A DNA stretch of 64,000 nt from a virus. The translations under genes and the position numbers were made by a program. Where the stretch lies: the IMG/VR virus record IMGVR_UViG_3300025809_002164, positions 62,001 through 126,000 of that record; one strand, given 5' to 3'. This document shows positions 33,336 through 64,000 of the stretch, piece after piece (position 1 is the stretch's first letter; each line of letters starts with the position of its first letter). The notes beneath the pieces were generated by a model, which was not told where the DNA came from, did no database searches, and worked only from the letters and a program-made list of their open reading frames with translations.

Positions 33336-33337
33336 AA

Positions 33338-36088: not shown

Positions 36089-36105
36089 TTTATTTTAATG
36101 TTAAA

Positions 36106-38289: not shown

Positions 38290-38293
38290 ATTA

Positions 38294-42423: not shown

Positions 42424-42432
42424 ATTTATATA

Positions 42433-42437
42433 TACAC
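42433..42437 (-). promoter_or_regulatory. GTGTA element before the 40489-42423 gene
   Basis: On the minus strand GTGTATATATAAAT directly precedes the ATG at 42423, with the first G at -14. It closely resembles a T4 late TATAAATA box extended by GTG, yet it lies at the start codon itself. Confidence 0.55.
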
Positions 42438-42457
42438 TTTTTATATTTAGTTTTCAT

Positions 42458-45400
42458 TTAAAAAATTCCAGTTTGCCCGTAAGTAAAAATGCCGCCAGTG
42501 TAAGATAGTCCGGTAGAGAAATGGTTCAACTCCCAACTAGGCTGCGGGAGTTGCTGCATTCTTTGATAGCCTTTCGCAGAATTCAAAACTCCAGTTAGAT
42601 CTATTGGTATGCATATCTCATAAATTGATACAGATTCTGGGCATTTTTCATAAATAGATACTTGAGCTCCAGGAGTTCTTGATGGAGTAATCGTACTAGT
42701 CGGAGTAATCGTACTGGTCGGAGTAATCGTACTAGTCGGAGTAATCGTACTGGTCGGAGTAATCGTACTGGTCGGAGTAATCGTACTAGTCGGAGTAATC
42801 GTACTAGTCGGAGTAATCGTACTGGTCGGAGTAATCGTACTAGTCGGAGTAATCGTACTAGTCGGAGTAATCGTACTGGTCGGAGTAATCGTACTGGTCG
42901 GAGTAATCGTACTGGTCGGAGTAATCGTACTAGTCGGAGTAATCGTACTGGTCGGAGTAATCGTACTGGTCGGAGTAATCGTGCTAGTTGGAGTACGGCT
43001 AGCTCCTGGAGTCATAGTATTCGTAGGAGTAATCGTACTAGTAGGAGTCAATGTCACACTGGGAGTAACAGTAACTGTTGGAGTTCTGCTTGAAGGAGGA
43101 CAATACGGAGGTTGATCATTATCAACGATTAAAACATTGTATGGATTTTTATATAAAATCCTAGATGAAACACAATTTATTTGACCTATATTATATAATG
43201 TAATATTAAAAAATTCAGACTCTTCATGAATAAGATCTTCTTTTGTGTTTATTGCAATATACTGAACATTTTCTCCGCCTGCAAAATTCAGAACCCCTGT
43301 GGTTCCAAAAAAGTCTATACCCTGATCTGCAGAAAATAGGCTAGACGATGTTTTATATCCTACGGAAAAAGGCCCCGAGTAATCTTTGTCAGAGTAAGTT
43401 AATTCCCTATAAACCCTGACTCCAGTAGCTTGACCCTCAACGACATAAGTTGATGGATATTGAAATCTAATAGAGAGTTCTTTTTGAATACAAGTCGGAG
43501 TCGGAGTAATCGTATTAGTCGGAGTAATCGTGTTAGTCGGAGTAATCGTATTGCTCGGAGTAATCGTGCTTGTTGGGGTAATCGTACTGGTCGGAGTAAT
43601 CGTATTGCTCGGAGTAATCGTGCTTGTTGGGGTAATCGTACTGGTCGGAGTAATCGTACTAGTCGGAGTAATCGTACTAGTCGGAGTAATTGTACTAGTC
43701 GGAGTAATCGTACTGGTCGGAGTAATCGTACTAGTCGGAGTAATCGTACTAGTCGGAGTAATCGTACTAGTCGGAGTAATCGTACTAGTCGGAGTAATCG
43801 TACTAGTCGGAGTAATCGTACTAGTCGGAGTAATCGTACTAGTTGGAGTAATCGTACTAGTCGGAGTAATCGTACTAGTCGGAGTAATCGTACTAGTTGG
43901 AGTAATCGTGCTTGTTGGAGTAATCGTACTAGTCGGAGTAATCGTACTAGTCGGAGTAATCGTGCTTGTTGGAGTAATCGTACTAGTCGGAGTAATCGTA
44001 CTAGTCGGAGTAATCGTACTGGTCGGAGTAATCGTACTGGTCGGAGTAATCGTACTAGTTGGAGTAATCGTACTAGTCGGAGTAATCGTGCTAGTCAAGG
44101 TCGGAGTAATCGTACTAGTCGGAGTAATCGTGCTAGTCGGAGTAATCGTGCTAGTCAAGGTCGGAGTAATCGTACTAGTCGGAGTAATCGTGCTAGTCGG
44201 AGTCGCTGTCTGACTGCTTGTTGGAGTCGGAGTTGGGGTTCTTACTGCGATATTAATAACTCCACACTTAGATTTCCTATTAGTATTCAAGTTATCTATA
44301 AAAACAAAAGCATTGTAATTACCTAAGCTACTATAAGTATGACTTACTGTCGTATAATATCCGACTTCATTATCCCATGATAATTTTTGATTGCTCAGAA
44401 TAGTACCATCTCCAAAGTTAACACTATACCTCAAATCATTACTTACATTAAATTGATCTTCAGCCATCAAACCTAAAGAAAAAGTAGAAGCTCCATACTC
44501 AACCCTAGAACCAAAAGGAATACAGCAACTTCCCGATAGTAAAGATGTCGATGGCGTTATAGTTGGAGTAATCGTACTGGTCGGAGTAATCGTACTAGTT
44601 GGAGTAATTGTACTGGTCGCAGTTGGAGTAATCGTACTGGTTGGAGTAATCGTACTAGTCGTAGTCGGAGTACTGGTCGCAGTCGGAGTAATCGTACTGG
44701 TCGGAGTAATCGTACTAGTCGGAGTAATCGTACTGGTCGGAGTATTTGTCGGAGTAATCGTACTGGTCGGAGTATTTGTCGGAGTAATCGTACTAGTCGG
44801 AGTATTTGTTGGAGTAATCGTACTAGTAATCGAAATAGTCGGAGTATTCGTCGGAGTAATCGTACTAGTCGGAGTATTCGTCGGAGTAATCGTACTGGTC
44901 GGAGTATTTGTCGGAGTAATCGTACTGGTCGGAGTATTTGTCGGAGTAATCGTGCTAGTCGGAGTATTTGTAGGAGTAATCGTACTAGTAATCGAAATAG
45001 TCGGAGTATTCGTCGGAGTAATCGAAATAGTCGGAGTATTCGTCGGAGTAATCGTACTAGTAATCGAAATAGTCGGAGTAATCGTGCTAGTCGGAGTATT
45101 TGTAGGAGTAATCGTAGGGGTGGCTGTACTACTCGGACTCGGAGGCGGAACTTCGCCCTGCACGATATTCATTGGAGCGGGAGAACCCGCCATCGAAATC
45201 GGACTAGAAGCATAAGTTAAAGTAAGGCTCGGAGTAAATACTGAAGATTTCTGAATTGTCCCGTTAGTAATCTGCTCAGACCTAGAAAATCCTCCATCTC
45301 CTACTAGCCTGACTTGTATCAACTTGTCTCCTGGGTTTAATGCATCGTCATGAAGAGAAATCTCAAAAATTTTTCTTCTTCCAAGATTATTTAATGCCGC

Positions 45401-45985
45401 AACATTCGTAGTTGGAGGATTCATGTGAGTTCCACGAAACGTAGTCGCTACTGCGGATCCTTTGTATGTATTAAAATGATTCTCGTTTGTAAAAATTGGA
45501 TCCTGACCATCCAGCTTTTCATTGTAACCCATGTAATAATAGATTCCAACTGGAGACATCTCCACAATATTTGAAATGGCAAACAATTTAGTGTATATCT
45601 TTGTTACCAAACCAGCCCGAGTTTCACCCGCTGCAATATTAATATTTGCTATATTAAAATCGAAGGTGTGGGATGTTGGGGGGTTAGTAACACTTCCAGA
45701 AAACAACCCATTGAAGCCGCGAGCTGTGCTGCCATTCTGGAGCTTATAGTAACCCAAACTTGTCGCAGTCCTTCTCTCTGAAGGCCAGGATCGAACACCT
45801 CCAACTATTTTTTTTGATAATTGCTGAAGGGCCGGTAAAAACCCAACAATACTGAGCTCTCCAGAAAAAACTCCCCCTATTGCCAAGCTAGCGGCAGCAG
45901 GCAGCCTGAATAAATATTTCTTATCATAAGAACTGGAGCCGTTGTAGATATGTTTATTCCATCTATCTGTATGAACTACCGACAT
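42458..45985 (-). CDS. giant mucin-like virion protein with PKD-like and Calx-beta-like domains
   Basis: 1175 residues from the ATG at 45985, which lies one base after the upstream stop; a TTG 15 bases earlier would overlap it. Order: N-terminal beta domain (1-280), ITPTNTP/ITPTST array (about 282-478), a PKD-like domain (VNFGDGT ... [13 protein letters not shown], about 480-580), a second array (581-830), a Calx-beta-like domain (about 835-960, [14 protein letters not shown] ... [10 protein letters not shown]), a third array (966-1104), and a short tail. About half the protein is Thr/Ser/Pro. It is likely a long modular fibre or decoration. Confidence 0.75.
42674..43088 (-). repeat. 18-bp ITPTST array (array C1)
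   Basis: Highly regular tandem 18-bp units near the 3' end of the giant gene, mixing CTAGTC and CTGGTC variants, ended by a GASRTPT interruption. Confidence 0.9.
43495..44243 (-). repeat. 18-bp ITPTST array (array C2)
   Basis: The longest uninterrupted array, about 40 units, with two LTST interruptions. Several stretches of adjacent units are identical, indicating recent expansion. Confidence 0.9.
44550..45140 (-). repeat. mixed ITPTNTP/ITPTST array (array C3)
   Basis: Here the higher-order unit is [10 protein letters not shown] (30 bp), with occasional ISITST pieces, showing a different expansion history from C1 and C2. Confidence 0.85.
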
Positions 45986-45986
45986 A

Positions 45987-48206
45987 CTAACTAGGCTCAA
46001 CTATAAATACCGAGTAAGGATTAACTCCTAGGATCTGAACGTTAGAACTTACACTAACTGGGTTAGATAAGTAAATATTAAAAAACTCATCGCTCTCCCT
46101 AGGGTCATTATCTCCAGGAATCGGCAAGCCAGTAACTGTTATTTCTTTGAAAAGTTCACCCTTATTGAAAGATAGTGTGCCTGCCCCAGAAGCATAGTCA
46201 TATTCATACCCAGCAATCGCAAAAACACCGGAGCCGGAAGCACTATTTCCCGCATCCCTAGTGGAGTAATCAACAGAAAATGCTTCTAAAGATTGATCGC
46301 TCCTGAACGAATCTCTTACAACTCTTAAAGTCGCAACTGTTCCTTCTACTAAATAAGTGGAAGAATATTGAAACCTTACATACTGATTATTTATCCGGCT
46401 CAAAGTCGGAGTAATCGTAGTAGTCGGAGTAATCGTAGTAGTCGGAGTAATCGTACTAGTCGGAGTAATCGTGCTAGTTGGAGTAATCGTACTAGTTGGA
46501 GTAATTGTGCTGGTCGCAGTTGGAGTGATCGTACTAGTCGGAGTAATCGTACTAGTCGGAGTAATCGTACTAGTTGGAGTAATCGTACTAGTCGGAGTAA
46601 TCGTACTGGTCGGAGTAATCGTACTGGTTGGAGTGCGGCTAGCTCCTGGAGTCATAGTATTCGTAGGAGTAATCGTACTAGTTGGAGTGATCGTACTAGT
46701 CGGAGTAATCGTACTGGTTGGAGTAATCGTACTGGTCGGAGTAATCGTACTAGTCGGAGTAATCGTACTGGTCGGAGTAATCGTACTGGTCGGAGTAATC
46801 GTACTGGTTGGAGTAATTGTGCTAGTAGTAGTAACAGTCGGAGTAACCGTGCTGCTAATCGTAATGCTCGGAGTAATAGTCGGAGTGATTGTACTGGTTG
46901 GAGTAATAGTTGGGGTTAAGCTACTCGTAGGAGTAGGGCTTAAAGCTATTACCGGAGGACAGAAAAGAGCTTCGTCAAAATCTGAAGATGACGGATTACC
47001 TGGGCACGGCTTTGGGTCGTTAGATCCTGGAGCAGAGGCTGAGTTGAGGCAACCCCCACTCACCAGAAAACCATTAGTGGTTGTTAACGTAAAATCAAAG
47101 CCAACATCAACACTAGCAGCTCCGCCAATCTGCATGTTCGTATTTTTGCTTTTCAATACAGCATTATCAATAACATAAGTCATTAACGTTCTTCTCGAGG
47201 TATCGTCTCCCTGACAAAAGGAAGAGGATGGCGGACAATTATCCTTACAATCTATTGTTATCTTGTAAGGCTTATCGTAACCTAATATTTTATTCAAATT
47301 ACCCGTCTCTAAATTTCTTTTAATTATATTCAGATTTAAAGATCCCCTAGCGGGCAAACTTAATTTCCTATCATACGGATACATAGATCCAAACCCATAC
47401 AGATTTCTACGATTTAAGTCAACACCAATATCAAAGCCTACAGCATTAGCATTATCCTTAGATACTACAGATCCTCCGATATTTAATTCTTCAATTTTAA
47501 TATCTATATAATTAGGAAGCAAGGCTGGAGCGGAATACTCATCAGCGAAGTCCTGAGGTCCAAATTGATATTTATGACGATCCTTGTACTCTCCGTCGTA
47601 TAAATGAATTGCAGGTATATAATTATTGGAGTTATATTCATCCAGCTTAATATTTGAAGCTTGATAATCCATTGAGACCACAGCTGGCGAGCCAACTTGC
47701 ACCGATAAATTATAACTTGTAGCGAATGCATTGCCTACACCCATGACATAATGCCCAATAAAGTCAGACTCTTTCAGTAAATAATTAGCTTGCTTACCTA
47801 CATCACTCCTAAGGACCAGGAAAAAGTTTTTATCCCCAAAGTGTCTAGATATAAAGCTATTTTCCGCAATACCTCCGTTAGGGACAACATTAAAATTTAA
47901 AAGGTATTCATTAAGCCCACAAGTAGGTAGGTAGCTGAAACTAAAATTAACAGGAACCGGCTCTATGTTTACATCAATATTACTTCCAGGGCTAGGAACT
48001 GCATTGATTACATTAATTCTCCGAGTAAGCAAGTCTTCATGACCTATCTGCTTAATCTCTTCTCTATTTATATCAAAACCATAAGAAACGGACTGAACTT
48101 TTGTTATTTGTCTAAGAAATGATTGGTCGACATCAAAATGCGGCCTGAATGCTGGAGCTGGACCAACAAATAAAGCTGCATAATCAGACCTAAAAAAATT
48201 CCTCAT
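45987..48206 (-). CDS. tail-tube-like protein with Thr/Ser/Pro array and Calx-beta-like C-domain
   Basis: 739 residues. Residues 1-400 resemble the 48290-49912 protein ([23 protein letters not shown] corresponds to LKRVQSANYSFTINRQDVNQFGH), a tail-tube-like fold. Residues about 421-601 are an ITPTST array with a GASRTPT break. The last 130 residues look Calx-beta-like ([14 protein letters not shown] ... [10 protein letters not shown]). It could be a decorated tube or tail-tip variant. A GTGTA element and an AAGG ribosome-binding site precede the ATG. Confidence 0.7.
46403..46945 (-). repeat. 18-bp ITPTST array (array D)
   Basis: Tandem units in the 45987-48206 gene. The TPGASRTPT interruption is shared with array C1, suggesting copying between genes. 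Confidence 0.9.
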
Positions 48207-48219
48207 ACCTTAATAAACA

Positions 48220-48250
48220 ATTACACCACAACCGGAGATTGTGGTGTAAT
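48220..48250. terminator. perfect 12-bp hairpin between two structural genes
   Basis: ATTACACCACAA (48220-48231), seven-base loop CCGGAGA, TTGTGGTGTAAT (48239-48250). It lies about 40 bases after the stop of the 48290-49912 gene, the usual place for a terminator, but lacks a long T-run. Read leftward, its second arm contains GTGTAAT, so the structure also holds the GTGTA element of the next gene. Confidence 0.65.
48222..48226 (-). promoter_or_regulatory. GTGTA element inside the hairpin, before the 45987-48206 gene
   Basis: On the minus strand GTGTAATTGTTTATTAAGGT precedes the ATG at 48206, with the first G at -20. Here an AAGG ribosome-binding site is present, unlike in the -14 to -17 class. 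Confidence 0.45.
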
Positions 48251-48289
48251 ATAATAAAATATATATACTTTATTTACATTCTTTTAAAA

Positions 48290-49912
48290 TTAAAAGTGTT
48301 TTGTGTGTTTAGCCACTTCGGAATTCCAACCTTCAGACTCTTTTCCGGAGTAGTATCCAGATGTTCCAAGGTGTCCATATCTGAAATATTTCAGCCCGTC
48401 CCCTGTATTCTCAATAGTTGGGAAAGATTTATTCTTGCCATCAGCCCCTGTCTGGTTTTCATAGCCAGAAAAGAATACTCCAACCGCTGATTCTTCAGGG
48501 CCTCCTATTTGAGTTGAAAATGTAAGGTCTACGGTTTTATTGTCTCCTATTGATGAACTAAAGCTTTCTGAATCTAGTACGGCTTTTTTGAAATCAATCA
48601 CAATAGCATCAGGTTTTGCGTTAGGATCACATACAACACATGAAGGATTTTGAATTCTAACCTTAAGGTCGTAAGTTCCTCCGCAAATAAGATCAACTAA
48701 ATTTCCATCTTTTAAATCTGCTACTAATGCATTAACACTCAAAGAGCAAGTTACAGGAAAATCTACTTCTTTAGCATATGCATATGTACTACCCAATCTC
48801 TGTAATGCTGATCTACCGAGAGGAGTAGATAACGAAAAGCTTTGAATGTGAGCACTACCAAAATCGGCAGGATTATTATACCCAACAGAATTTCCAGATA
48901 ATTGCCTAGAAATTAATGCAGAATCTTGAAGATCTATAGTTATATCTCCAGGCTTTAAGACGCTTTGACCTTGACCACTTTCAGTGGGGGGTAAAGTGAA
49001 GCATCTATCACAAATTAATGTGCCATCTGTTGGATCAATTGCTGGTATATTTTTGTAATCTGTACCCACGTCAGATTTTAAATTCATTCCTTCTACGGTA
49101 ACTGAAGCTGTTGGAAAGGATCCAACACTTCCTTCTATAGAATAATCAGTAACATAACCGTTTCCAAGACTAATAGATGTTTTCTCTGCCTCGGTTACCA
49201 TTTGGTCACCCTTGAGAGCATCTCTGCCTTCTGGCACAGTTAATATAAAAAAGTTGTTTCCAAATTCATTTTGAGATCGAGTCATCATTCCTGACAAGCT
49301 CTGAAATGAGCCATCAGTTACCATCCCCATTAATCTTTCATTTTCTCCATCCGTCAAGTAGTAAGAAAAATCCAGACTTACAGTTGGAGCCTCAAGGACC
49401 ACAGAGTCGATTCTTGCTAAATGTCCAAACTGATTGACATCTTGCCTATTTATAGTAAAGCTATAATTAGCGCTTTGAACTCTTTTAAGTTGCTCAACAG
49501 TTGTTCCCCATGAACCTTTAACATTGACGTCTCCATAGTGCTTCATGTATTTCAAGCCATTACCCGTAACACCACTTAGCATACCAAGGTCAGCGAGTAC
49601 TGGATGCCCCACCGCTTTGTAACCAGTATTCCCTGTAAGATTAAAGCCTGTAAAAGTTCCAGTACAGTCGTAAGTTTTATATTTAAAGTCAGTCCAAAGA
49701 CCTCCTCCAGTTGTTCCGGATCCCACACAAGCATTAAAACCAAACGTGGAGTCATTCACACCACTTCCGGTTATCATACATTCATTTATCGTTGTTGCCC
49801 CGGTTACCGACTCGGGTGGCATGTAGTAAAGATGATGACCTGTCGTGTCTGGTGATATGAATAAAGCTTCACTTTGATAAATTACTCGATTTCTTGCTGG
49901 TAGTTTGCTCAT
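48290..49912 (-). CDS. probable major virion protein, tail-tube-like
   Basis: 540 residues. The middle (LKRVQSANYSFTINRQDVNQFGHLA, then VSLDFSYYLTDGENERLMGM) follows the pattern of tail-tube-type proteins. It is paralogous to the first half of the 45987-48206 gene. It has no Thr/Ser/Pro array. It has its own GTGTA element with a long leader and a strong hairpin after its stop, which suggests high, separately controlled expression, as expected for a major tail component. A sheath or tube cannot be separated by eye. Confidence 0.6.
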   Translation of the reverse strand: MSKLPARNRVIYQSEALFISPDTTGHHLYYMPPESVTGATTINECMITGSGVNDSTFGFNACVGSGTTGGGLWTDFKYKTYDCTGTFTGFNLTGNTGYKAVGHPVLADLGMLSGVTGNGLKYMKHYGDVNVKGSWGTTVEQLKRVQSANYSFTINRQDVNQFGHLARIDSVVLEAPTVSLDFSYYLTDGENERLMGMVTDGSFQSLSGMMTRSQNEFGNNFFILTVPEGRDALKGDQMVTEAEKTSISLGNGYVTDYSIEGSVGSFPTASVTVEGMNLKSDVGTDYKNIPAIDPTDGTLICDRCFTLPPTESGQGQSVLKPGDITIDLQDSALISRQLSGNSVGYNNPADFGSAHIQSFSLSTPLGRSALQRLGSTYAYAKEVDFPVTCSLSVNALVADLKDGNLVDLICGGTYDLKVRIQNPSCVVCDPNAKPDAIVIDFKKAVLDSESFSSSIGDNKTVDLTFSTQIGGPEESAVGVFFSGYENQTGADGKNKSFPTIENTGDGLKYFRYGHLGTSGYYSGKESEGWNSEVAKHTKHF

Positions 49913-49978: not shown

Positions 49979-51580
49979 TTATTCCCAAATTCCAGTAAAC
50001 CTAATTTCCATTTTTGGAACACTGGAGGTTCCGTAGTTTGTGCTGACGGGGTCACTACTATAAAGGCCTACTCTTAGGTGTATGCTTTGATTATGCGCAT
50101 CTTTAGTTATGGTCTTAACTTGAGTAAATGTCCCGTTATTATTTTTCTGCATCAGTCCAAAATCATATAAAAGAAAATCTGACAGTGTACATCCCGCAGG
50201 GTTTGCGAAATAATCAGGAGCAGATGTAAATTTATCATCCGCAGCATTATCCATATTCAAGTAAGGCCACGGATCATCTGAACCTTGGTACACCCATCCG
50301 TACCCATCATCATGAGCCCCGTTACAACCTGCAGTAGATTTAATATTCATTGGATCTGCCGGTAAGATTGTAAATTTAGTTTTACCTTCAGGCCAAGCGA
50401 TATTTGATTTACTCGAATTAAAGGCTGAACCTTGTGTATCTAATCCCCCATCGATTAAGGCTACGACTCCTCCTCCGCCTGCTCCAGTTAATTGTATGTA
50501 AGAATATTCAGGGTCAGCCTGACTTGGTGGTGAAGACGTCGCTGTAGGAGTTACCGTAGCAGTCGGAGTGATAGTACTGGTAGGAGTAATAGATGAAGTA
50601 GCAGTCGGAGTGATAGTACTGGTAGGACTCACTGAAGATGTTATTGTAGCAGTCGGAGTGATAGTGCTGGTAGGAGTAATAGATGAAGTAGTAGTCGGAG
50701 TAGTAGTGGTCGTTGGAGTCGGAGTTTCACTAGCTCCAGGACTAACGCTAGCAGTCGGAGTAATCGTGCTCGTTGGAGTAATAGAGTTAGTCGGAGTTAT
50801 TGTCTGAGTTATGGTCGGAGTTATTGTGCTAGTAGGAGTAATGGATGAGGTAACAGTCGGAGTTATCGTACTGGTAGGAGTCACTGAAGATGTTACTGTG
50901 GCAGTCGGAGTTATTGTGCTAGTAGGAGTAATGGATGAGGTAACAGTCGGAGTTATCGTACTGGTAGGAGTCACTGAAGATGTTACTGTAGCCGTCGGAG
51001 TAATCGTACTGGTCGCACTCGGAGTAATCGTGCTAGTCGGAGTAATACTTGGAGTAGTCGTAATAGTCGGAGTAATACTCGGAGTAATCGTAATAGTCGG
51101 AGTAATACTTGGAGTAGTCGTAATAGTCGGAGTAATCGTACTAGTCGGAGTAATCGAGCTGGTAGCAGTCGGGGTGATAGTGCTAGTGGGGGTAATAGTA
51201 TTAGTTGGCGTAACACTTGCAGACATTAGCATTGAAGATGTCGGAGTTGGAGTCGGAGTAGTCGTGCTAGTTGGAGTAACACTAGGGTCAGGAGGGCAAT
51301 TAAATTTTATCCCCGACAGCATTGGACTGATTCCAAATACTTCTCCCTGCTCATTATAAGCGGAAACTTTATAATTATAAAGCACTGTATCACAATATTC
51401 TACTTCGTCAACCCCAGTAATAAGTATAGGGTTTCCTACTCCGGAAGGAATTAAAGTCTTAATGTGATTAAAATCTCCATAAGTAGATCCAGCGACTTCC
51501 TGCCTGTACAGCTTATAACCGTCAGCCAAGTAAGGCTCCTCGTTTTTGTGCAAAAAACTATAATATACTTTATATGCCAT
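49979..51580 (-). CDS. virion protein: FN3-like domain, Thr/Ser/Pro stalk, C-terminal tip
   Basis: 533 residues. Residues 1-95 look like a fibronectin-III module (MAYKVYYSFLH ... YNYKVSAYNEQGEVFG). Residues about 99-349 are TPTST-type repeats including SSITPTST and TITPSIT variants. Residues 350-533 form a Gly/Asn/Asp-rich tip domain (LTGAGGGGVVALIDGG). It is likely a fibre with a long stalk. It begins a transcription unit with a GTGTA element at -14. Confidence 0.7.
   Translation of the reverse strand: MAYKVYYSFLHKNEEPYLADGYKLYRQEVAGSTYGDFNHIKTLIPSGVGNPILITGVDEVEYCDTVLYNYKVSAYNEQGEVFGISPMLSGIKFNCPPDPSVTPTSTTTPTPTPTSSMLMSASVTPTNTITPTSTITPTATSSITPTSTITPTITTTPSITPTITITPSITPTITTTPSITPTSTITPSATSTITPTATVTSSVTPTSTITPTVTSSITPTSTITPTATVTSSVTPTSTITPTVTSSITPTSTITPTITQTITPTNSITPTSTITPTASVSPGASETPTPTTTTTPTTTSSITPTSTITPTATITSSVSPTSTITPTATSSITPTSTITPTATVTPTATSSPPSQADPEYSYIQLTGAGGGGVVALIDGGLDTQGSAFNSSKSNIAWPEGKTKFTILPADPMNIKSTAGCNGAHDDGYGWVYQGSDDPWPYLNMDNAADDKFTSAPDYFANPAGCTLSDFLLYDFGLMQKNNNGTFTQVKTITKDAHNQSIHLRVGLYSSDPVSTNYGTSSVPKMEIRFTGIWE
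50533..51285 (-). repeat. Thr/Ser/Pro-coding tandem array (array E)
   Basis: A less regular mixture of 18-bp ITPTST units with SSITPTST, TVTSSVTP and TITPSIT variants, older or more diverged than arrays C and D. Confidence 0.85.
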
Positions 51581-54103: not shown

Positions 54104-54949
54104 ATGTATACTAAGTCTAATAAAGAAATATATCGCTTTACTATTAATCTCGAGCAAGAAATTGAAAAAGAAGTTGATGTCGAAAAAGAAATAGAAGTCG
54201 AAAGAGAAGTTGAGGTTACTAAAACCAGAAAAGACGATTCAGGCAAAACTGAAAAATATAAAGAAAGTGTGCTTAAAAAAGTAAAAGAGAAAGAAGTAGT
54301 TAAAGAGAAAAGAACCTCCAAGGAAAAAGTCCCACATGTCTTCGTAATTAAACAACCGAATCGCCGGCAGATGGAAGAAGCCGACATGGAATTTAGTATT
54401 GAAATGAGCAGGTGTGTGAAAGAGGGGATACTAACTAAAGCTATGCTCTTAAATAAGTATACAGACACTGGAGGAATTATGAGCGAGTCTGAAGCTAAAG
54501 AATTATCTAAGCTTTATTCTAAACTATCAGAGAAACAAACAGAATTTACTGCCTGGAAAATTTCTGATAAATCAAACTTTACTGAAAAACAAAAAGCTGT
54601 TATAGAGGAAATATCCTCACTCAGAAGAGTGATCGCTCAAACTGAAACTAATTATTCCGCACTACTCAATCACACAGCAGATCATAAAGCTCAAACTCGA
54701 GTGATAGGTTGGTATTTATTATCTCTCGCCCACATAGAAAAAGACGGAGAACTTGAGCAGTTCTTTAAAGGAACAGGTTATGAAGAGAAAAAAGAAAATT
54801 TGTATAAACTAGAGGAAGAAGAGGATGACCTACTAGCGGCCGTATACGACAAACTAATAGCATTTATTAGCTTTTGGTATTTCAGTGTCTCGACCAACTT
54901 TGACGACTTCGTTGATCTAGAAAAAGACATAGAGGCAGGCAACCTATAA
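54104..54949 (+). CDS. tail assembly chaperone-like protein 1
   Basis: 281 residues. A highly charged N-terminal third (repeats of EKEVDVEKEIEVERE) is followed by KQPNRRQMEEADMEFSIEMS, GILTKAMLLNKY and a helix-rich C-terminus. The position, two genes upstream of the tape measure, is where the tail assembly chaperones (lambda gpG/gpGT type) lie. A frameshift signal was looked for near the stop and not found. Role by position, so moderate confidence. Confidence 0.6.
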   Translation: MYTKSNKEIYRFTINLEQEIEKEVDVEKEIEVEREVEVTKTRKDDSGKTEKYKESVLKKVKEKEVVKEKRTSKEKVPHVFVIKQPNRRQMEEADMEFSIEMSRCVKEGILTKAMLLNKYTDTGGIMSESEAKELSKLYSKLSEKQTEFTAWKISDKSNFTEKQKAVIEEISSLRRVIAQTETNYSALLNHTADHKAQTRVIGWYLLSLAHIEKDGELEQFFKGTGYEEKKENLYKLEEEEDDLLAAVYDKLIAFISFWYFSVSTNFDDFVDLEKDIEAGNL

Positions 54950-54950
54950 T

Positions 54951-55955
54951 GTGGAATCAACAGAGTACAGGAAGATATTTAGAGATATAATTAAAGGCCG
55001 AACCGATGTAGAAATAGGCGGCACTAAATATTACATTAAACATCTTAGCTCTTTAGATCAAGTTGATATTGATGAAATTAGAGATTCCTATATAGAAATA
55101 GCCTTATCAAGAGGTATTCCCAGCATGAAGGAAGCCCTTCAATCCATAAAGGATCAAGGTTTATGGACAGACAAAGACGAAAGAGAAATTAAACGTCAAG
55201 AAAACTTCATATCACAATTACGAGATAACAAGACTGAACTAGTCTTAAAGTCTCAAATAGACTTACAGAATAAAGAGATAGAAGAAACTCGCGCAAAAAT
55301 AAATGATCTTGAATCCAAGAAGCAAAGGTTACTTGGAGTTAATGCAGAGGATTATGCCAGTAAACGTGCTAGTGACTACTACATAATTAAGTCATTTTAC
55401 TTAGACCTCGAGTTAACTAAACCATTATTTTTAGAGGAGGAAGACTTCAATGAATTATATGCGGAGGAAGTTTCTGAGTTTATCCTTGGATACAATAAAG
55501 CTTTTAATGATTTTGATGAACTTAAAATTCAAGAAATGATACTTCAAGATTTTTATTATATATATTTTCCCTTTAGCGATGATACTGTTGGCTTTTTTGG
55601 TACTCCCGTAGTCGAATTAACTCATAATCAATTAAAGATGATAGTTTATACTAAAATATTTAAAAATATATTTGAAAATAATAAACATATTCCAGAAAAA
55701 ATTAAAAAAGACCCTAAAGCATTACTTGACTATGGTAGCATATCAGATGATGCCAAATCAAACTTACAGGATAAGTTTGGAGAAGATAAAGATGGATCAA
55801 CTTTATTTAATGCCACGGAAGAAGATTTTGAGTATGCCGGCCTAGAAAAACCTTCAGATAAAGCTGGAATTTCCCTTCATGACGCCGCCAAAAAGAAAGG
55901 CGGAAGTTTATCAATGGAAGATCTAATGGAATTAAGTGGTTTACCCAAAAAATAA
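54951..55955 (+). CDS. tail assembly chaperone-like protein 2
   Basis: 334 residues from a GTG one base after the preceding stop (TAATGTG). A long charged coiled coil (residues about 70-115, QIDLQNKEIEETRAKINDLE) follows an N-terminal domain with ITPH-like strands, and the C-terminus ends in SLSMEDLMELSGLPKK. It sits 30 bases before the tape measure, the usual place for the second chaperone. Function inferred from position and helicity. Confidence 0.6.
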   Translation: MESTEYRKIFRDIIKGRTDVEIGGTKYYIKHLSSLDQVDIDEIRDSYIEIALSRGIPSMKEALQSIKDQGLWTDKDEREIKRQENFISQLRDNKTELVLKSQIDLQNKEIEETRAKINDLESKKQRLLGVNAEDYASKRASDYYIIKSFYLDLELTKPLFLEEEDFNELYAEEVSEFILGYNKAFNDFDELKIQEMILQDFYYIYFPFSDDTVGFFGTPVVELTHNQLKMIVYTKIFKNIFENNKHIPEKIKKDPKALLDYGSISDDAKSNLQDKFGEDKDGSTLFNATEEDFEYAGLEKPSDKAGISLHDAAKKKGGSLSMEDLMELSGLPKK

Positions 55956-55985: not shown

Positions 55986-58900
55986 ATGTCACTAGGATTA
56001 AGAACTCATGTAATAGATTTAGAACAAAACATTAATCGTATTGTTCGAAAAGTAAATGCAGGTGGAGGTATAGTAGTTAAAGTGCGAGCGAGCGACTTTA
56101 CTCAACCACTGGGCAGAATGTCGGCGAAAGCTAATGAATTCACAAAGTCTCTTGAAGCTTCCAATGCTCGAGTGATAGCCTTCGGAGCATCTGCGGCAAT
56201 TATAGGGGGAGTAACCTTAGGATTCACCCAACTAGTTGTTCAGGCCACAAAAGTAGAAAAGATCTTAACCGACATTAATGTAGTTCTTAATACTTCCACA
56301 CAGAATTTAGAAAAGTTCGGAAACAGCTTGTTTAAGGTTGCTCGAAATACATCCCAAACTCTAGAGGTCGCAGCAGAAGCAGCTCTGGAGTTTTCCAGAC
56401 AAGGATTAAGTATGGAGGAGACTCTAAAGAGAACGAATGATGCCCTAATCTTGACTAGGCTCACTAGTTTAAAAGCTGCCGATTCAGTAAAAGGTCTAAC
56501 TGCTGCGGTTAACGGTTTCGCTGATGCAGGCATGACTACAGCCATGGTTATCAATAAATTATCCGCAGTAGATATTAAATTTGCCGTAAGTACAGACGAC
56601 TTAATTAACGCTCTATCTAGAGCTGGAGCTGTAGCTCAAGATGCGGGGGTTAGTTTTGATCAATTAATGGGAGCAGTAACTTCAGCTCAGCAGATTACAG
56701 CTCGAGGAGGAGCCGTAATAGGTAATAGTTTTAAGACTATCTTTACAAGAGTACAAAGAGGATCAACATTACAATCCTTAGAGGATTTAGGTATTGCGGT
56801 CAGAGATATAAGAGGAAACACACTTCCTGCTATGACGGTCCTTCAGAATTTATCATCAACTTACGAAAAGTTAGGAGCAACAACTAAAGCTGCGGTAGCC
56901 GAGCAAGTGGGTGGAGTTTTTCAAATCAACATACTTAAAGCGGCAATTAAAGACTTAAATGCCGAAACTTCAATATATAGTCAGGCGACCAAAGCATCAT
57001 CGTCAGCGACAAATGAAGCTTATACAAAAAATGCACAACTACAAAAAACTCTATCATCAATAGCCAATCAAACATTAACTACTGTTAGGGAATTAACAGC
57101 CAACCTAGGAAGCTTGACTATAGCTCCAGCCTTACAAGATTTCCTAAGCTCAGCTAACGAAGTTTTGGGGTCATTCAATAAGCTCTTTGGGGACACAGAG
57201 GGCGAATCTATTGGGGGTGACTTCGCTAAAGGTTTTGCAAGAGGTCTGGGCTCAGTACTCATGGGCCCCGGAATGATGGTTGCAGTTTTAGTGTTTGCAA
57301 AATTATTTAGTCAAGCTTTCAAATTTGCCAAAAGCTCAGTTAAAGATTTATTGCAGATTCAAAGCATTAAAGAAAAAGAAAAAGCAATACAAGAGTCTAT
57401 CGTTGATGCTATGATCAAGAATGTAGCCTTAAGTAAAGAGCTAGTAAAAATAGACGGAGACCAAGTTAAGCAAGAGCAAATAGTATTAGCTTTACTAAAA
57501 GAACAGACCGCACACATAGAACAGCAAAGAAGGATTGCTTCAGATATATCTCCGGCACTTAGAAGAGCTGGAGTTCAACCTAACTTGATAGTCTCAAAAG
57601 GTTCAAAACATGGATCTGACGGCCTTATTCCAAATTACTCAAACACAACACCCCTTGAGAGAGAAAGAGAAAGAAGCGGAGCACAGAAGGGTGGGTACAC
57701 AGCTGGAGCCATAGCTAAAATGCATGTGCCCAAATTAGGTGAAGTTGTCTACAACAAAAGAGAATCAGTTAGGAAATTCCCAGGAATGCAGCAACCCGCA
57801 ATTATTCCACCAATCAGCAGTAAGGCTGGTAAAAAATACCAAGACAATTTTTCCGAGAGGCATGGCTTTGATCCATACGGCAGTTCTAATAACTCAACCT
57901 ATAATGGCGGCTTAATTCCTAATTTCGCATCCAATACAACTGAGAAGTCTGCAATTCGAGCAATCCTAGATACACTAAAGAAAAGAAAGGTAAAAGTCTT
58001 ACCCAACGACCCGAAGCTCTCTTTCGCTGCAAATAGATACATGGAGGCGACCAAAGACAGGGAGTATCCTGGAGGTTCTGTTAATTTTGGCAAACATAAA
58101 ATAAGCATGAATGAAATCACCCTAGCCTTAAAGAAGCATGGTAATTATATGGGTGACGAAGATTTCTATGGAAATAAAGCTGGAGGCCTTATTCCTAACT
58201 TCGCACTTGGAGCCTCGCAACTCGCAGGTACAAATATTCTGAAATTGCCAAAAGCGAAAATGGCAACGCAAACAACTAAATCAGACTTTAGAGGAAATAG
58301 AGTTAAGGGTTGGAAAAATTTAGAAGCTCCACTTGACAGCATACAAAAAAGTGCCGCTAGTTATGCAGACGAGTTTAATGTTTTAAAAGGTCTAGGTATT
58401 AATGTGCTACAAAGAAAAATGTTCTTCACAAACAAAGAAGACGGAGGGATACGAAAATCTATAAATACTACTGATAGAAAAATGGCTAAATCCCGAGGAT
58501 TTCAGAAAAACAATAGAGACAACATAGCCGGATCTTCATACGAATCAGGACTTTACAAAAATCATTTAAAAGATAAAGGCTATAATGAAACTTGGACTGG
58601 AGGCTACACCCCTAAAGGTTTCCAGAAAGGCACAGGGGACCCTCAATCTACGGTTGATTTTTTTAAGGCTGGAAGGCTTCCAATAGAAGCTAAGTATGGG
58701 AAATTTACTCAAGCGAACTTAATAGCAAAAAGCATAAGGCTGTCTAGCGATAGATACATAGAAGACTTTTTATCAAGCAGGGGCGAGGGCGATATTGCTA
58801 ACAATATGGCTAATAAAAAATTTCAAGATGCATCAAGCACTCTTTCTAGCCTAGGTCATAAAAACGTAGATAAATCTATGGTGAAAAAATTCGGACTATC

Positions 58901-61900
58901 TTCAGGATTAGTACCTAATTTTATGTCTATTGGTTTAGGGCCTCATATGAACAGTAGCGATTGGCTAACCTCAAGTCTTAACCTAACCCGACAAAACTGG
59001 GACCAGGGCCAAAACCTAAAAGATGGTAGCTTTAGTGACTGGGTAGATTTCATAACAAAAGATCGCCAAATAGGCGTCCCGCTTCATTACAGAGACCGGC
59101 CGAGCAAAATAGACGAGATAGCTCAAAATAAATCGAACTCGAAAAGAGCTCGTCAGGCCAAAATACTCTACAATGACTACCTTAAAAATTTCACGAACAC
59201 AAACACTAAGAAAATCAAGATGTCTAAATTTGGAAATGTTCTTGAAATGGCTTTGGCTCAAAATTTCGGCAAAAAACCTACGTCAGCTTCATACCCAATG
59301 GACTTCACACATAATCCAATACATAAGCTTGACGGGAACCCTATAGTGAGTAGACAAACTTTAGGTCTCAACTCGCAGGTGGGAGATGCCGTTGTGACTT
59401 CTTCGGGACACGAAAAAAATAAGTTTTTCTCAAAAATTTTAGCTCACCAAATTAAATCAGGGTCAGCCGTCCTTGGAAAAAGAGGCAAATTTCCAGCAAG
59501 AATTAAAAACACAGGAGGATACAATGACTTAATCGGACACTCAGGCAAGACGAAACTTGATAAAACTGTTACAAACCATACAGCTACAGGAGCACAGTTA
59601 ACCAAAAAAAACGGCATCTTAGGGAAGTACTTAAATCCTAAGCAAAGTTATAAGTTAGATAAGTACAAAAAAGACTTCTGGAGTTACGACGAACTAGGCA
59701 TAAAGGCAGGTCAGGCTGTATCCAATTCGCAAGGTTTTATTCCAAATTATCTAAACACTGAAGAATTCGGCGACACCAGCACTAGCGCTGCCCAATTTAA
59801 TCAAAATAACGGACTCGACCTACAAACAGCTCTCTCAGGAGGCAAGGGTTTCAAGCTTACAAAATCTAACTTTCAAAAAGTAAGGCAATTCCTTAATAGT
59901 GCAGAATTCAGAAGTCTTCCTGCAGGAATTAAAACTCAATTAACAAACAAGCTCAGGATTCAATCAAAATTTCTAAAAATGGGAGATGTAACTAGACCTT
60001 ACTTAAAAGGCAAAACATCTTTTCCAGGTCGAATCGCAGTCTCTGGAGGTCTCATTCCGAATTTCTCCAACCCCTTGGCTGAAGCTATAGGTAGAGAAAA
60101 AGCAGCACTTTCAAGCCAGGGATCTACAGCTAAAGTCTATGTAGATCAGGATCAGAGACTTAAAGACACACTAAACCCTATGGGGCTAATGGTAGCAAAC
60201 AGAAGAGATGAGCCAATATCTGGTGCTCAAGGAGTTAATCGAGCAATTAATCAAGGGCTTAATCCGAAAACTCACGGCAGTTCAAATAATTCTACATATG
60301 ATTCAGGGCTAATTCCTAATTTCAACAGCCCAGTAGTAACGGGTACAGGCGGCAGTGTGTTCGCACCAGGTATTAAGGAATTAGATAAAGCAGCTAAGGA
60401 TACTGCTTCCAAAGTTAAAGATCACGGTAAATCTAGCAAAGAAGCATCAGGATCAGGAATGGATATGATGGGAGCAATGTTTGCTCTGACTAGTGTCTCA
60501 TATGCAGTTGAGGGAGCTTTAGGAGATGTCGACAGCTCCGCCGGAGCATTGGTTAAAACTCTCAATGCGGGAATAATGGGAGCTTCTCAGGGAGTAATGG
60601 TCTGGCAAGGCCTAAGTTCTGTAGGGGATAGCCTTATTAAGAAAAACACAAAGATGGGAAAAGCTATGGGTGTCGGAACAAAAATTCTCGGAGGTCTTGG
60701 CGCAGCTGTCGGAGTCCTAGTTCCAGTATTTCAAGCTTTAGGGGAAAATACCAGCATGCTGGATGGTCCGTTTGAAACTTTAGCTAAAAGTGTAAAAGAA
60801 ACATCGAAATCTATAGGGGCTCTAGGTAATGCCATAACTGCCCACACAGATCTAGAGTCTACTCGTAGTGAAATTTCACAATTAAATAATTCTCAAGATA
60901 AAAATACTTACGACGGAAGGATGAAACTATTAACCCTGCAGACGAAAGAAGCCAAAAATAACTCTGATTTAATTAAATCTGCTGGAGAACTTGGTAAAGC
61001 TTTAAACCTAACAGGAGCGGATCTTATGACAATGACATCTGGAACTGCTTTGGGCATGGAAAAACTACAAGAAAACATGTTAAAATACCAACAAGCACTT
61101 GCCGTAGAAACCGCGATGATGCAATTTACTAAAGGGCTAGGTAGTGGTGGGTTTGCTGGAATGTTCAAACAAGAAGGTACTGATTATGAAAGAAGGGCCG
61201 GCCAAGTGGGTGTAGCTCAGCAAATAGCTAGTCAATCAGAAAATCCCAAACAGTTAGACGAACAACTAAAAGTGTTTATGAAGGCCTTTTCTACCCTCAA
61301 AGAAGACTCCCAGCCCCTAAGAGACTCGGTCAGTACCTACCAGAATGTGTTGGCAGCAGGTAATAAAACAGGATTTGGAAGGTCCGCCGGATCACTTGCT
61401 ATGATGGCGAACAGTGCTAAGAATGAGCTTGGGATGGGAGTTGACGTGAGCAAGATTACTTCCACCTTTGAGAGTTCCGTCTCTAAGCTTCCTGTAGCCT
61501 ATCAAACTTTAGCATCCCAAATCATAAAGAACGCGCAATCAATGGAAATAGGGGATATTGAATCGCTCCTTAAAGGAGTTGAGAGTAATGCGAGGCTTTT
61601 AGTTAAAGATTCTAAAAAGTCAGCAGAACAACAAGTAATTAATTATAAATACCTAAGAGAGACTACTAGACTTAATCGAGAACTGGCCAACCGAACACAA
61701 CTATCATTAAATCAGGACAAAATAAACCTATCCTTAGGAAAAGAAAAGCAGGGAGTTCTAAAGTCAGCTCGAGCACACAATATAAAATACCTTGCAGCCC
61801 TGGGTGCGACAACTAAAGCCGCCACGCTTGAATCAGAGATGCTCGAAAAAAGCAAACAAATTGATCAAGATTTAATGAACAAAAAAACGGAAATAAATAA

Positions 61901-64000
61901 TAAATACAAAGCCGAAGGAATCAAGTATATTGACACATTATTTAACGATAAAAAAAATAGCCTTATCGATCCAGTATTAACTCAGAGCCAGGGGGGCAAG
62001 GATTCGAGTGGAAAGAGCCTTTCTGCTGAAAAAACATGGGAAAAATCTCAAAAAGAGCTACAGTCACGAATGATAGCAGCATCCTTCAATAACAAGGGCA
62101 TTGAAGAGGGCGGCACACAAGATCCAAAACTTCTAAAACTCAAGAAAGATTTAGGCCTTGCCCAGAACCAAGAACGAGTAAGCTTTCTATTTAAAGAGTA
62201 CATCCATTCCTTGAAGGATTCAGTAAAACAGCAAGAGGCCCTAAATAACTTTCAAAAAGCAAAGATAATACCAGAGCAGATAGACCTGGCAACGTTCTTC
62301 AGTCATTCCGTAAATCTTAAGAACCAAGAAATCAAGACGGAAGAAGACTCCGCTAAGGTTAAGAAAATCAACCTGGATGTAGTGAGAGCACAGCTCAATA
62401 TGGAAAAAGGAACTCTATCTCATGCCCAGAAAAGGCTTACAGATATCAAAGCTATCCCTTACCACCAATTAGACGAAGTAACAAAGGAACAAATAGACAC
62501 CAATAAAACTGTAGCTCAGGCTGACTACGAGATCCTTAGAAATAAAGAAATATATCTTTCCTTCGGAGAAGGTCTTGCATCCCTACAATCAGAGCAGCTT
62601 GAGGTTGAAAGGTTAAGAGTAAAAAAAGAATCGGATTCGCTCAATACTCAATCTAAAAGGCTAGATGCAGAAGAAAAGCTTAGAAAATCGACGGATGATT
62701 ATAAAAACATAATAAGGCTAAAGGTAGAAAATGAGCTTAAGACTTTAAGGAATTCTACTGATGATGATATTACGACTTTAAAAGAGGAGAAAAAACAGGG
62801 TGCCTTCGGAAAGCGAACTGAAGCCGGGAACAGTCAGTTGGTTAGGGACGAAGAAAGGGCGATGCTCAATCACATAGAAGCCTTAAAGCAAGGCACTTAT
62901 TCTCTCGGAGCTCTGCACAGCATGGCTGAGAGTACCAGATCTTTCGAAAAAGCCCTAATAGAAGCTAAAACAAAACTCGAGAACGGAGGCGACTTTCTAG
63001 AGGGTCAGCAAGGAGTAATTCTGGATACAGCTCACCAAAAAGGGGGCATAGAAAAACTTAAAGGAGAAAAATCAGTATTCAACGACAGAGGAGCAACAGT
63101 AAGAGTTGCAGAAACAGACCTGAAGATAGCTCAAGCGCACAAGGAGTTAAATTTAACAATGGGTGAAGGGAGTTTATTTGCGGACTCAATGAGAGTAAAA
63201 ATTGCTGAAGCAAATGTAGAAATGTCCAGGTTTGGCGAAACAATGGCCAACACGGCATTTGATGCGACCAAGGAAGGCTTTAAGGGGCTTATTCAAGACA
63301 TGGGAGACGGAACTAAATCTCTAGGTGACGTAGCCGCTAATTTCTTTGGAACTATAGTAGACAGAATGAATGAGAAGTTGATAGATAGAGCTGCAGGTCA
63401 ATTAACTGCAGGCCTAATGGAAGCCGCAGGCTTCAATCAAGGTGGCCATGTGGGATTCAATCAGGGAGGTCATGTCTCTAGGTATTCATCTGGAGGCACA
63501 ACTCGCCAAGTTCCAGCCATGTTGACCTCTGGAGAATATGTTGTACAAAAAAGAATAGTCGACAGGCTTGGAACTAACGAACTTAATAAAATTAACGACT
63601 CTGGATCCCTCGAGGAACTATATGATAAACCAAATAATGAGTCTTTTTCATTATTAAATGAAGGAGGCATAGCAAGCCCTCCAATCATAAAACTAAAAGA
63701 GGGAGGAGTTGCTAAAAATTATCTTTCAGGAATAGTAGGAACAATTAATAAATTCATGGGGGGCATAGTAAAAATGGCAGGGGGCGGAATACTATCCTCA
63801 AGCCCAGACGATAGTGCAGGTATGAAAATGGCAAAAGGGGCGGGCTACTTAGCAGGCTCAAGCCTCCATGCATATCAAAACAGAGGAGAAGGCAACCAAG
63901 GCCCTAGCGCTCCTAAAGCTCCGACCGCGCTCAACACACACTCCTCCTTGAATATTGACCCAACAGGAAACAGGATGAGTGCTAAATATAAAGCTAATGA
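55986..64000 (+). CDS. tail tape-measure protein with cargo-like middle region, 3' end beyond window
   Basis: A single frame stays open from ATG 55986 to the right edge (at least 2671 residues). Residues 1-300 match the phage tail tape-measure domain (LEFSRQGLSMEETLK, AGVSFDQLMGAVTSAQQIT, RGGAVIGNSFKTIFTRVQRG), and a hydrophobic stretch follows near 420-440. The middle, about 545-1450, holds seven GLIPNF-type motifs and a PD-(D/E)XK-like signature. Residues 1490-1600 are Gly/Ala/Met-rich hydrophobic. Then long coiled coils to about 2450 and a typical TMP C-terminal region (GGHVSRY ... VPAMLTSGEYVVQKR). It sets tail length and is ejected into the host with DNA. Confidence 0.92.
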   Translation, partial: MSLGLRTHVIDLEQNINRIVRKVNAGGGIVVKVRASDFTQPLGRMSAKANEFTKSLEASNARVIAFGASAAIIGGVTLGFTQLVVQATKVEKILTDINVVLNTSTQNLEKFGNSLFKVARNTSQTLEVAAEAALEFSRQGLSMEETLKRTNDALILTRLTSLKAADSVKGLTAAVNGFADAGMTTAMVINKLSAVDIKFAVSTDDLINALSRAGAVAQDAGVSFDQLMGAVTSAQQITARGGAVIGNSFKTIFTRVQRGSTLQSLEDLGIAVRDIRGNTLPAMTVLQNLSSTYEKLGATTKAAVAEQVGGVFQINILKAAIKDLNAETSIYSQATKASSSATNEAYTKNAQLQKTLSSIANQTLTTVRELTANLGSLTIAPALQDFLSSANEVLGSFNKLFGDTEGESIGGDFAKGFARGLGSVLMGPGMMVAVLVFAKLFSQAFKFAKSSVKDLLQIQSIKEKEKAIQESIVDAMIKNVALSKELVKIDGDQVKQEQIVLALLKEQTAHIEQQRRIASDISPALRRAGVQPNLIVSKGSKHGSDGLIPNYSNTTPLERERERSGAQKGGYTAGAIAKMHVPKLGEVVYNKRESVRKFPGMQQPAIIPPISSKAGKKYQDNFSERHGFDPYGSSNNSTYNGGLIPNFASNTTEKSAIRAILDTLKKRKVKVLPNDPKLSFAANRYMEATKDREYPGGSVNFGKHKISMNEITLALKKHGNYMGDEDFYGNKAGGLIPNFALGASQLAGTNILKLPKAKMATQTTKSDFRGNRVKGWKNLEAPLDSIQKSAASYADEFNVLKGLGINVLQRKMFFTNKEDGGIRKSINTTDRKMAKSRGFQKNNRDNIAGSSYESGLYKNHLKDKGYNETWTGGYTPKGFQKGTGDPQSTVDFFKAGRLPIEAKYGKFTQANLIAKSIRLSSDRYIEDFLSSRGEGDIANNMANKKFQDASSTLSSLGHKNVDKSMVKKFGLSSGLVPNFMSIGLGPHMNSSDWLTSSLNLTRQNWDQGQNLKDGSFSDWVDFITKDRQIGVPLHYRDRPSKIDEIAQNKSNSKRARQAKILYNDYLKNFTNTNTKKIKMSKFGNVLEMALAQNFGKKPTSASYPMDFTHNPIHKLDGNPIVSRQTLGLNSQVGDAVVTSSGHEKNKFFSKILAHQIKSGSAVLGKRGKFPARIKNTGGYNDLIGHSGKTKLDKTVTNHTATGAQLTKKNGILGKYLNPKQSYKLDKYKKDFWSYDELGIKAGQAVSNSQGFIPNYLNTEEFGDTSTSAAQFNQNNGLDLQTALSGGKGFKLTKSNFQKVRQFLNSAEFRSLPAGIKTQLTNKLRIQSKFLKMGDVTRPYLKGKTSFPGRIAVSGGLIPNFSNPLAEAIGREKAALSSQGSTAKVYVDQDQRLKDTLNPMGLMVANRRDEPISGAQGVNRAINQGLNPKTHGSSNNSTYDSGLIPNFNSPVVTGTGGSVFAPGIKELDKAAKDTASKVKDHGKSSKEASGSGMDMMGAMFALTSVSYAVEGALGDVDSSAGALVKTLNAGIMGASQGVMVWQGLSSVGDSLIKKNTKMGKAMGVGTKILGGLGAAVGVLVPVFQALGENTSMLDGPFETLAKSVKETSKSIGALGNAITAHTDLESTRSEISQLNNSQDKNTYDGRMKLLTLQTKEAKNNSDLIKSAGELGKALNLTGADLMTMTSGTALGMEKLQENMLKYQQALAVETAMMQFTKGLGSGGFAGMFKQEGTDYERRAGQVGVAQQIASQSENPKQLDEQLKVFMKAFSTLKEDSQPLRDSVSTYQNVLAAGNKTGFGRSAGSLAMMANSAKNELGMGVDVSKITSTFESSVSKLPVAYQTLASQIIKNAQSMEIGDIESLLKGVESNARLLVKDSKKSAEQQVINYKYLRETTRLNRELANRTQLSLNQDKINLSLGKEKQGVLKSARAHNIKYLAALGATTKAATLESEMLEKSKQIDQDLMNKKTEINNKYKAEGIKYIDTLFNDKKNSLIDPVLTQSQGGKDSSGKSLSAEKTWEKSQKELQSRMIAASFNNKGIEEGGTQDPKLLKLKKDLGLAQNQERVSFLFKEYIHSLKDSVKQQEALNNFQKAKIIPEQIDLATFFSHSVNLKNQEIKTEEDSAKVKKINLDVVRAQLNMEKGTLSHAQKRLTDIKAIPYHQLDEVTKEQIDTNKTVAQADYEILRNKEIYLSFGEGLASLQSEQLEVERLRVKKESDSLNTQSKRLDAEEKLRKSTDDYKNIIRLKVENELKTLRNSTDDDITTLKEEKKQGAFGKRTEAGNSQLVRDEERAMLNHIEALKQGTYSLGALHSMAESTRSFEKALIEAKTKLENGGDFLEGQQGVILDTAHQKGGIEKLKGEKSVFNDRGATVRVAETDLKIAQAHKELNLTMGEGSLFADSMRVKIAEANVEMSRFGETMANTAFDATKEGFKGLIQDMGDGTKSLGDVAANFFGTIVDRMNEKLIDRAAGQLTAGLMEAAGFNQGGHVGFNQGGHVSRYSSGGTTRQVPAMLTSGEYVVQKRIVDRLGTNELNKINDSGSLEELYDKPNNESFSLLNEGGIASPPIIKLKEGGVAKNYLSGIVGTINKFMGGIVKMAGGGILSSSPDDSAGMKMAKGAGYLAGSSLHAYQNRGEGNQGPSAPKAPTALNTHSSLNIDPTGNRMSAKYKAN
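57618..60329 (+). other. seven dispersed GLIPNF-type motifs in the tape measure
   Basis: Motif starts (nucleotide): DGLIPNYSN 57618, GGLIPNFAS 57906, GGLIPNFAL 58182, SGLVPNFMS 58902, QGFIPNYLN 59730, GGLIPNFSN 60045, SGLIPNFNS 60303. Consensus (G/S)G(L/F)(I/V)PN(F/Y). Intervals of about 260-830 bases hold dissimilar sequences. Copies 2 and 7 share the preceding GSSNNSTY. They may be domain junctions, processing sites or binding motifs. Confidence 0.85.
58539..58694 (+). other. PD-(D/E)XK-like nuclease signature within the tape measure
   Basis: In the segment between the third and fourth GLIPNF motifs: a Glu in a helix (SSYESGLYKNHL, E853), an Asp in a strand (STVDFF, D891), then E901-x-K903 (LPIEAKYGK) followed by a helix. 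Order and spacing match the core of PD-(D/E)XK nucleases. This is a motif reading, not a structural proof. Confidence 0.5.

Follow-up and report, generated by a model that had tools for sequence, protein, structure and literature searches.

Tape Measure Gene and Its Tags

Why should a tape measure protein (TMP), the ruler of a phage tail, carry one short peptide seven times in its middle part, and what are the stretches between the copies? The question arises from an open reading frame (ORF) in a 64,000-nucleotide stretch of viral DNA, here called the window, which corresponds to positions 62001-126000 of the 146,036-bp IMG/VR virus record IMGVR_UViG_3300025809_002164. The ORF starts at window position 55986 and runs beyond the window end, and by sequence comparison it is a TMP, as its N-terminal part matches the Pfam family PhageMin_Tail above cutoff as well as several PHROG tape measure families. 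Three parts can be told apart in the complete protein: a conserved N-terminal ruler part of about 545 amino acids (aa), which is about 70-77% identical to those of the nearest relatives, a middle part that bears the repeated peptide, referred to as the tag, and a conserved C-terminal part of about 1,540 aa.

55986..64000, + strand: TMP ORF; 2,984 aa, complete as L007:487-9441; Pfam PhageMin_Tail 2e-20, best PHROG tape measure match 8e-43
56340..56915, + strand: conserved N-terminal domain of the TMP (PhageMin_Tail, aa 119-310), from Pfam

A first-pass annotation, made from the sequence alone, had placed seven copies of G(L/F)(I/V)PN(F/Y) in this protein. All seven are real and in frame, at aa 546-1446, and were recovered at the expected places by motif scan:

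57621..57638, + strand: tag 1, GLIPNY
57909..57926, + strand: tag 2, GLIPNF
58185..58202, + strand: tag 3, GLIPNF
58905..58922, + strand: tag 4, GLVPNF
59733..59750, + strand: tag 5, GFIPNY
60048..60065, + strand: tag 6, GLIPNF
60306..60323, + strand: tag 7, GLIPNF

The pattern occurs neither elsewhere in the six frames of the window nor in 1,000 shuffles of the TMP. A degenerate DNA version gave six exact matches in the whole record, all inside the TMP gene, with none on the reverse strand and none in the control. Since the tag codons differ synonymously, the conservation is at the level of the protein.

Occurrence of the Tag in a Large Phage Family

The G-x-I-P-N-F tag is conserved within a large uncultured phage family and is specific to its TMPs. 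A strict DNA version of the tag (GFIPNFA) was scanned first and returned at least 120 stretches; among the matches listed, 68 of 75 ORFs have at least two tags, and almost all of the ORFs are TMPs homologous to that of the window. As such a scan is biased towards tagged proteins, an alignment of the tag-free N-terminal part was used to sample the family anew. This tag-blind search showed TMP relatives to be encoded on at least 582 IMG/VR viral contigs, from which 80 loci were kept and 76 TMPs read, some of them near-duplicates. Two to eleven tags are present in 74 of the 76 proteins (395 tags in total), and none was found in the other ORFs of more than 150 aa at these loci or in shuffled sequences. 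The two exceptions, the TMPs of L194 and L199, have degenerate PNF motifs (EVPNF, NLPNF, APNF). Among the complete TMPs of the sample the position of the first tag ranges from residue 492 to residue 650, and the span occupied by the tag-bounded segments, here termed cargo, varies from 90 to 1,220 aa.

Relatives occur in contigs binned with Halobacteriovorax, Neomarinimicrobiota, Flavobacteriales and Verrucomicrobiales, although as metagenome bins these are only indicative of the hosts. A collection of 50,697 phage records contained no close TMP from an isolate, the best matches being less than 30% identical, and tblastn of the cargo region, as well as a search with the bookend module described below, gave no match in the same records.

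Exchange of Cassettes at the Tags

Whole cassettes, each a domain between two tags, have been exchanged, inserted and duplicated, and the joints are at the tags. One case is provided by the TMP genes of L015 and L016, which are 99.7-99.9% identical save for one block, of 815 versus 1,025 nucleotides (nt), that begins and ends within tag codons. Each of the two genes also has a 507-bp unit, running from tag to tag, in tandem duplicate. In L017, the slot swapped between these two is occupied by an SNase cassette (Pfam 8e-6), and L185 holds one cassette more than L189, inserted from tag to tag. When all close pairs were counted with duplicates removed, 74 of 84 edges of non-homologous cargo blocks (88%) were within 15 nt of a tag, compared to 10.8% for random positions; the pairs are not fully independent, and the effect is large. 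In three pairs of divergent TMPs the cargo is nearly identical, at 96% in the cargo versus 43% in the backbone for L046 and L087, 94% versus 45% for L030 and L044, and 87.5% versus 39% for L072 and L096. The first-pass annotation had read the motifs as a tag joined to variable payloads, and in this respect it is borne out, as the cargo enclosed by the tags differs from relative to relative, and the breakpoints of recombination coincide with the tags.

In two TMPs a pair of tags is nearly abutting, near residue 595-607 in L020 (FIPNFANFIPNF) and at residues 1595-1616 in L015 (GFIPNF-YNYNPEFGSH-GLIPNY). These pairs are possibly footprints of cassette loss.

An additional lead, GSSNNSTY, precedes tags 2 and 7 of the window protein, as had been noticed before, and sequence comparison places it as follows:

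57879..57902, + strand: GSSNNSTY lead before tag 2 (aa 632)
60276..60299, + strand: GSSNNSTY lead before tag 7 (aa 1431)

The DNA of the two copies differs synonymously, with 32 of 45 positions identical over 15 codons. The earlier proposal that the two junctions arose by duplication of a cassette fits less well than a subfamily extension of the tag, given that the lead precedes most tags of the L020 TMP. In L020 (reverse strand) the lead, as GSxNNxTY, is also found in front of GGIV motifs near the C-terminal GEYVV region of the protein. The sequences suggest that the tag and a common glycine-rich tape measure motif may be related elements.

Segments of the Window Protein

The seven tags mark off six segments. 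It had been claimed that these are all unlike each other; this is correct for the four in between, while the first and the last are homologous (blastp 8e-11, and by alignment) and are referred to as bookend modules.

57621..57926, + strand: segment 1, N-terminal bookend module; present in relatives, homologous to segment 6
57909..58202, + strand: segment 2, small cassette (cluster 9); common to L015 (C15), L016 (C16), L017 (C17) and L020 (C20)
58185..58922, + strand: segment 3, cassette with a PD-(D/E)XK-like motif, D-x9-E-x-K at aa 891/901/903
58905..59750, + strand: segment 4, nuclease-like cassette (cluster 18); slot swapped between L015 and L016, SNase in L017
59733..60065, + strand: segment 5, small cassette (cluster 19); 39% identity to the L015 copy
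60048..60323, + strand: segment 6, C-terminal bookend module, NPxGLxVxNxRDEP, from alignment

The cassette of segment 2 was not found in C14, C27 and C28. Nostoc phage N1 has a tag-less form of the bookend module close to the end of its probable tape measure. The L028 TMP contains two copies of the module, each of which closes a set of cassettes, and this gives the impression that a whole cargo region was duplicated or fused.

In Pfam searches the window protein matched the tape measure domain only, with no MuF, portal, relaxase or similar hallmark domain and no match for any of the four segments between the bookends. That segments 3 and 4 may be enzymes is suggested by nuclease-like motifs only. 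The D, E and K of segment 3 are kept in 12 of 12 genuine homologues (alignment A12; the SNase cassette L163:13769-14461 in this alignment was excluded from the count), and G-x-x-x-E is located upstream in most members. In segment 4, the nuclease-like E and D are kept and the position of the K is ambiguous. Two candidate identities were not adopted. For segment 3, a pentatricopeptide assignment from a PDB sequence search proved to consist of short matches that were judged spurious, and the placement of segment 4 in a large nuclease-like family, initially a profile match with an E value of 6.5e-7, dropped to 2.9% probability when the tags were trimmed and other settings were used, so that it depends on how the alignment is made.

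Sequence comparison makes it clear that the cargo is under purifying selection. Between the segment 3 copies of C15 and C17 (L015 and L017) the proportion of nonsynonymous differences (pN) is 0.12 against a synonymous one (pS) of 0.73, a ratio which is rough as the synonymous sites are near saturation.

What the Cassettes Encode

Within the family, 375 segments of at least 100 aa fell into 110 sequence families by single linkage, 59 of them singletons; some bookends are among the segments. Pfam profiles matched a GNAT acetyltransferase (7e-8), a cytidyltransferase-associated, nucleotidyltransferase-like region (6e-8), PcfJ (3e-7), SNase (8e-6 and 3.7e-6), HATPase and, weakly, ParB_N, the HATPase match being at 4e-5. 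HAD-like, P-loop, ADP-ribosyltransferase-like and many PD-(D/E)XK-like cassettes were recognized by motif, a weaker basis than a profile match. Disparate activities may be combined in one polypeptide, as indicated by profile matches at the level of the family (SNase, GNAT, nucleotidyltransferase-related, HATPase) and, for the window protein, by motifs only. Matches in PADLOC were few and weak. In an alignment of 28 nuclease-like cassettes, the invariant columns are only the tag residues and the putative active-site G, E, D and K.

A Probable Cargo Bay in the Ruler

We regard it as probable, if far from certain, that the protein is a siphovirus TMP with a built-in cargo bay of tag-bounded, swappable domains which are ejected into the host at the start of infection. 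In such an arrangement, a bay of separate domains would lie between the N- and C-terminal ruler parts and would be closed at both ends by the related bookend modules. The cargo would travel in the tail together with the TMP and, when infection starts, would be ejected into the host envelope or cytoplasm, where DNA, RNA, nucleotides or defence of the host might be the targets of the delivered domains. Entry of the cargo along with the ruler is deduced from tape measure biology and from the precedent of phage P23-45 (see below), and a role as early-infection effectors is the best inference at present. The tag would most likely serve as a conserved junction or docking peptide for a phage-encoded partner in the tail, such as the assembly chaperone, the tube lumen or the tip. 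Docking by way of the tag would allow any domain to be packed and threaded in series; cleavage could occur and would not be required. As the tag is constant across phages that apparently infect several phyla, this partner is probably encoded by the phage.

Several points weigh against this explanation. Most cargo families have no match in Pfam, PHROGs or NCBIfam. The AlphaFold2 model of segment 3 is mediocre, with a mean confidence (pLDDT, predicted local distance difference test) of 58 and the tags in low-confidence coil ends, and a PDB structure search with it gave no fold match; the model of segment 4 is poor (pLDDT 49). Furthermore, folded domains of 100-350 aa would be hard to fit into the tail lumen beside the ruler, and would have to be partly unfolded or flat.

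A wider version can be put forward more tentatively, and we think it somewhat doubtful as it stands. The PNF tag would then be a general cargo-loading code that a conserved partner in the tail reads. Whatever domain is flanked by tags could thereby be packed in series, delivered into the host at the very beginning of infection and possibly cut free at the tag, and cassettes would be traded among phages of several bacterial phyla.

Alternative Explanations

The strongest alternative, albeit an unlikely one, is that the tags are proteolytic sites: each G-x-I-P-N-F would be cleaved by a protease of phage or host origin, and the segments would be released as separate effectors. It would account for a short motif that is strictly conserved between unrelated domains, for the preference for small residues two positions before the tag glycine, and for the location of the tags in the segment 3 model, in coil ends of low confidence, although disorder is to be expected anyway at the segment ends where the tags sit. 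However, no cognate protease was identified, and a host protease is improbable because residues on either side of any cut are conserved, and this across contigs that binning assigns to several bacterial phyla. A docking or junction role of the tag is tentatively favoured over cleavage.

Somewhat less likely still, the tags might bind the tail assembly chaperone or the tube solely for the building of long tails, with the segments as structural filler that plays no part in the host. Chaperone binding along the tape measure is familiar from gpG/gpGT of phage lambda, and both the restriction of the tags to the TMP and the lead in front of the C-terminal GGIV motifs of L020 would agree with such a role. 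Filler would not, however, be expected to match SNase, GNAT and nucleotidyltransferase profiles, to retain invariant active-site residues or to be exchanged as cassettes, and the tags are restricted to the middle region of the TMP.

That the cassettes are selfish, homing-nuclease-like inserts invading at the tags is very improbable: nuclease-like motifs are found in many of them, and nuclease genes are known from phage exchange boundaries (PMC10448857), but non-nuclease cargo is common, the cassettes remain in frame without splicing elements, and the synonymous variation of the tag codons leaves no fixed DNA target site. An ordinary TMP of variable length, with the tags as internal turns of one continuous repeat fold, has equally little in its favour beyond the recurrence of the tags within one protein and the commonness of long TMPs, as a whole segment can give way to an unrelated one of different length while the rest stays unchanged, and the total cargo span of complete TMPs varies from 90 to 1,220 aa.

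Comparison to Known Systems

In the literature searched, which mostly excluded subscription papers, no description of the motif or of tag-bounded TMP cassettes was found, and novelty is accordingly provisional; hits to the motif string were chance letter matches only. Nearest among known systems are phage polyvalent proteins and, in Thermus phage P23-45, an RNA polymerase fused to the TMP. Polyvalent proteins (Iyer et al. 2017, PMC5512222), which occur in phages and conjugative elements, combine many domains of differing activity in one long, virion-encoded polypeptide and are predicted to enter the host with the DNA, an arrangement that the TMP family would resemble. The ART and GNAT domains reported there have counterparts in the GNAT and ART-like cassettes of the TMP family. 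Their carriers, however, are MuF, portal, relaxase or other large proteins, and tape measures do not appear in that text, whereas here the TMP is the carrier, and the short tag that the cassettes have in common at their ends is also the site of recombination. In P23-45, a virion RNA polymerase is fused to the TMP and has been proposed to be active in the host cell while the DNA enters (PMC10770324). An enzyme is thus joined to a tape measure in both cases, but the portion of that report available describes a single, fixed N-terminal enzyme and neither tags nor a series of interchangeable cassettes.

Sle1-type effectors of contractile injection systems are similar in that a tape-measure-related protein with an exchangeable domain is packaged in a tail-like particle; they differ in belonging to a bacterial injection system with one functional domain per effector, and the accessible part of the source (PMC13277306) mentions no repeated tag. 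Polymorphic toxin systems (PMC3482391) share the combination of a constant delivery part with recombining variable domains, but their variation is C-terminal and they are accompanied by immunity genes, in contrast to the several internal slots of the TMP. No immunity gene lies next to the cassettes of the window TMP, which are internal to one ORF with no separate same-strand gene between them.

Genomic Setting

As is the case in siphoviruses, the TMP gene is followed by ORFs that match PHROG families of minor tail and tail assembly proteins. Two ORFs directly upstream occupy the place of the tail assembly chaperone:

54104..55955, + strand: two ORFs in tail-assembly-chaperone position; role by position only

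Neither had a match in PHROG. Further upstream, a protein encoded at 49979-51580 on the - strand, probably a fibre or linker protein, contains long runs of (I/S)TPT-type threonine/proline repeats, and the tail genes are faced, at 31221-49912 on the - strand, by a row of very large ORFs of 540-1,180 aa.

Implications

If the explanation of the TMP as a carrier of cargo is true, the TMP of a large uncultured phage family would be a modular delivery vehicle, and the passage of folded enzymes through a non-contractile tail would become a testable question. The tags would allow hundreds of candidate early-infection or anti-defence proteins to be read from metagenomes. The cargo-loading code, should it exist, would be the phage counterpart of the effector tags of secretion systems.

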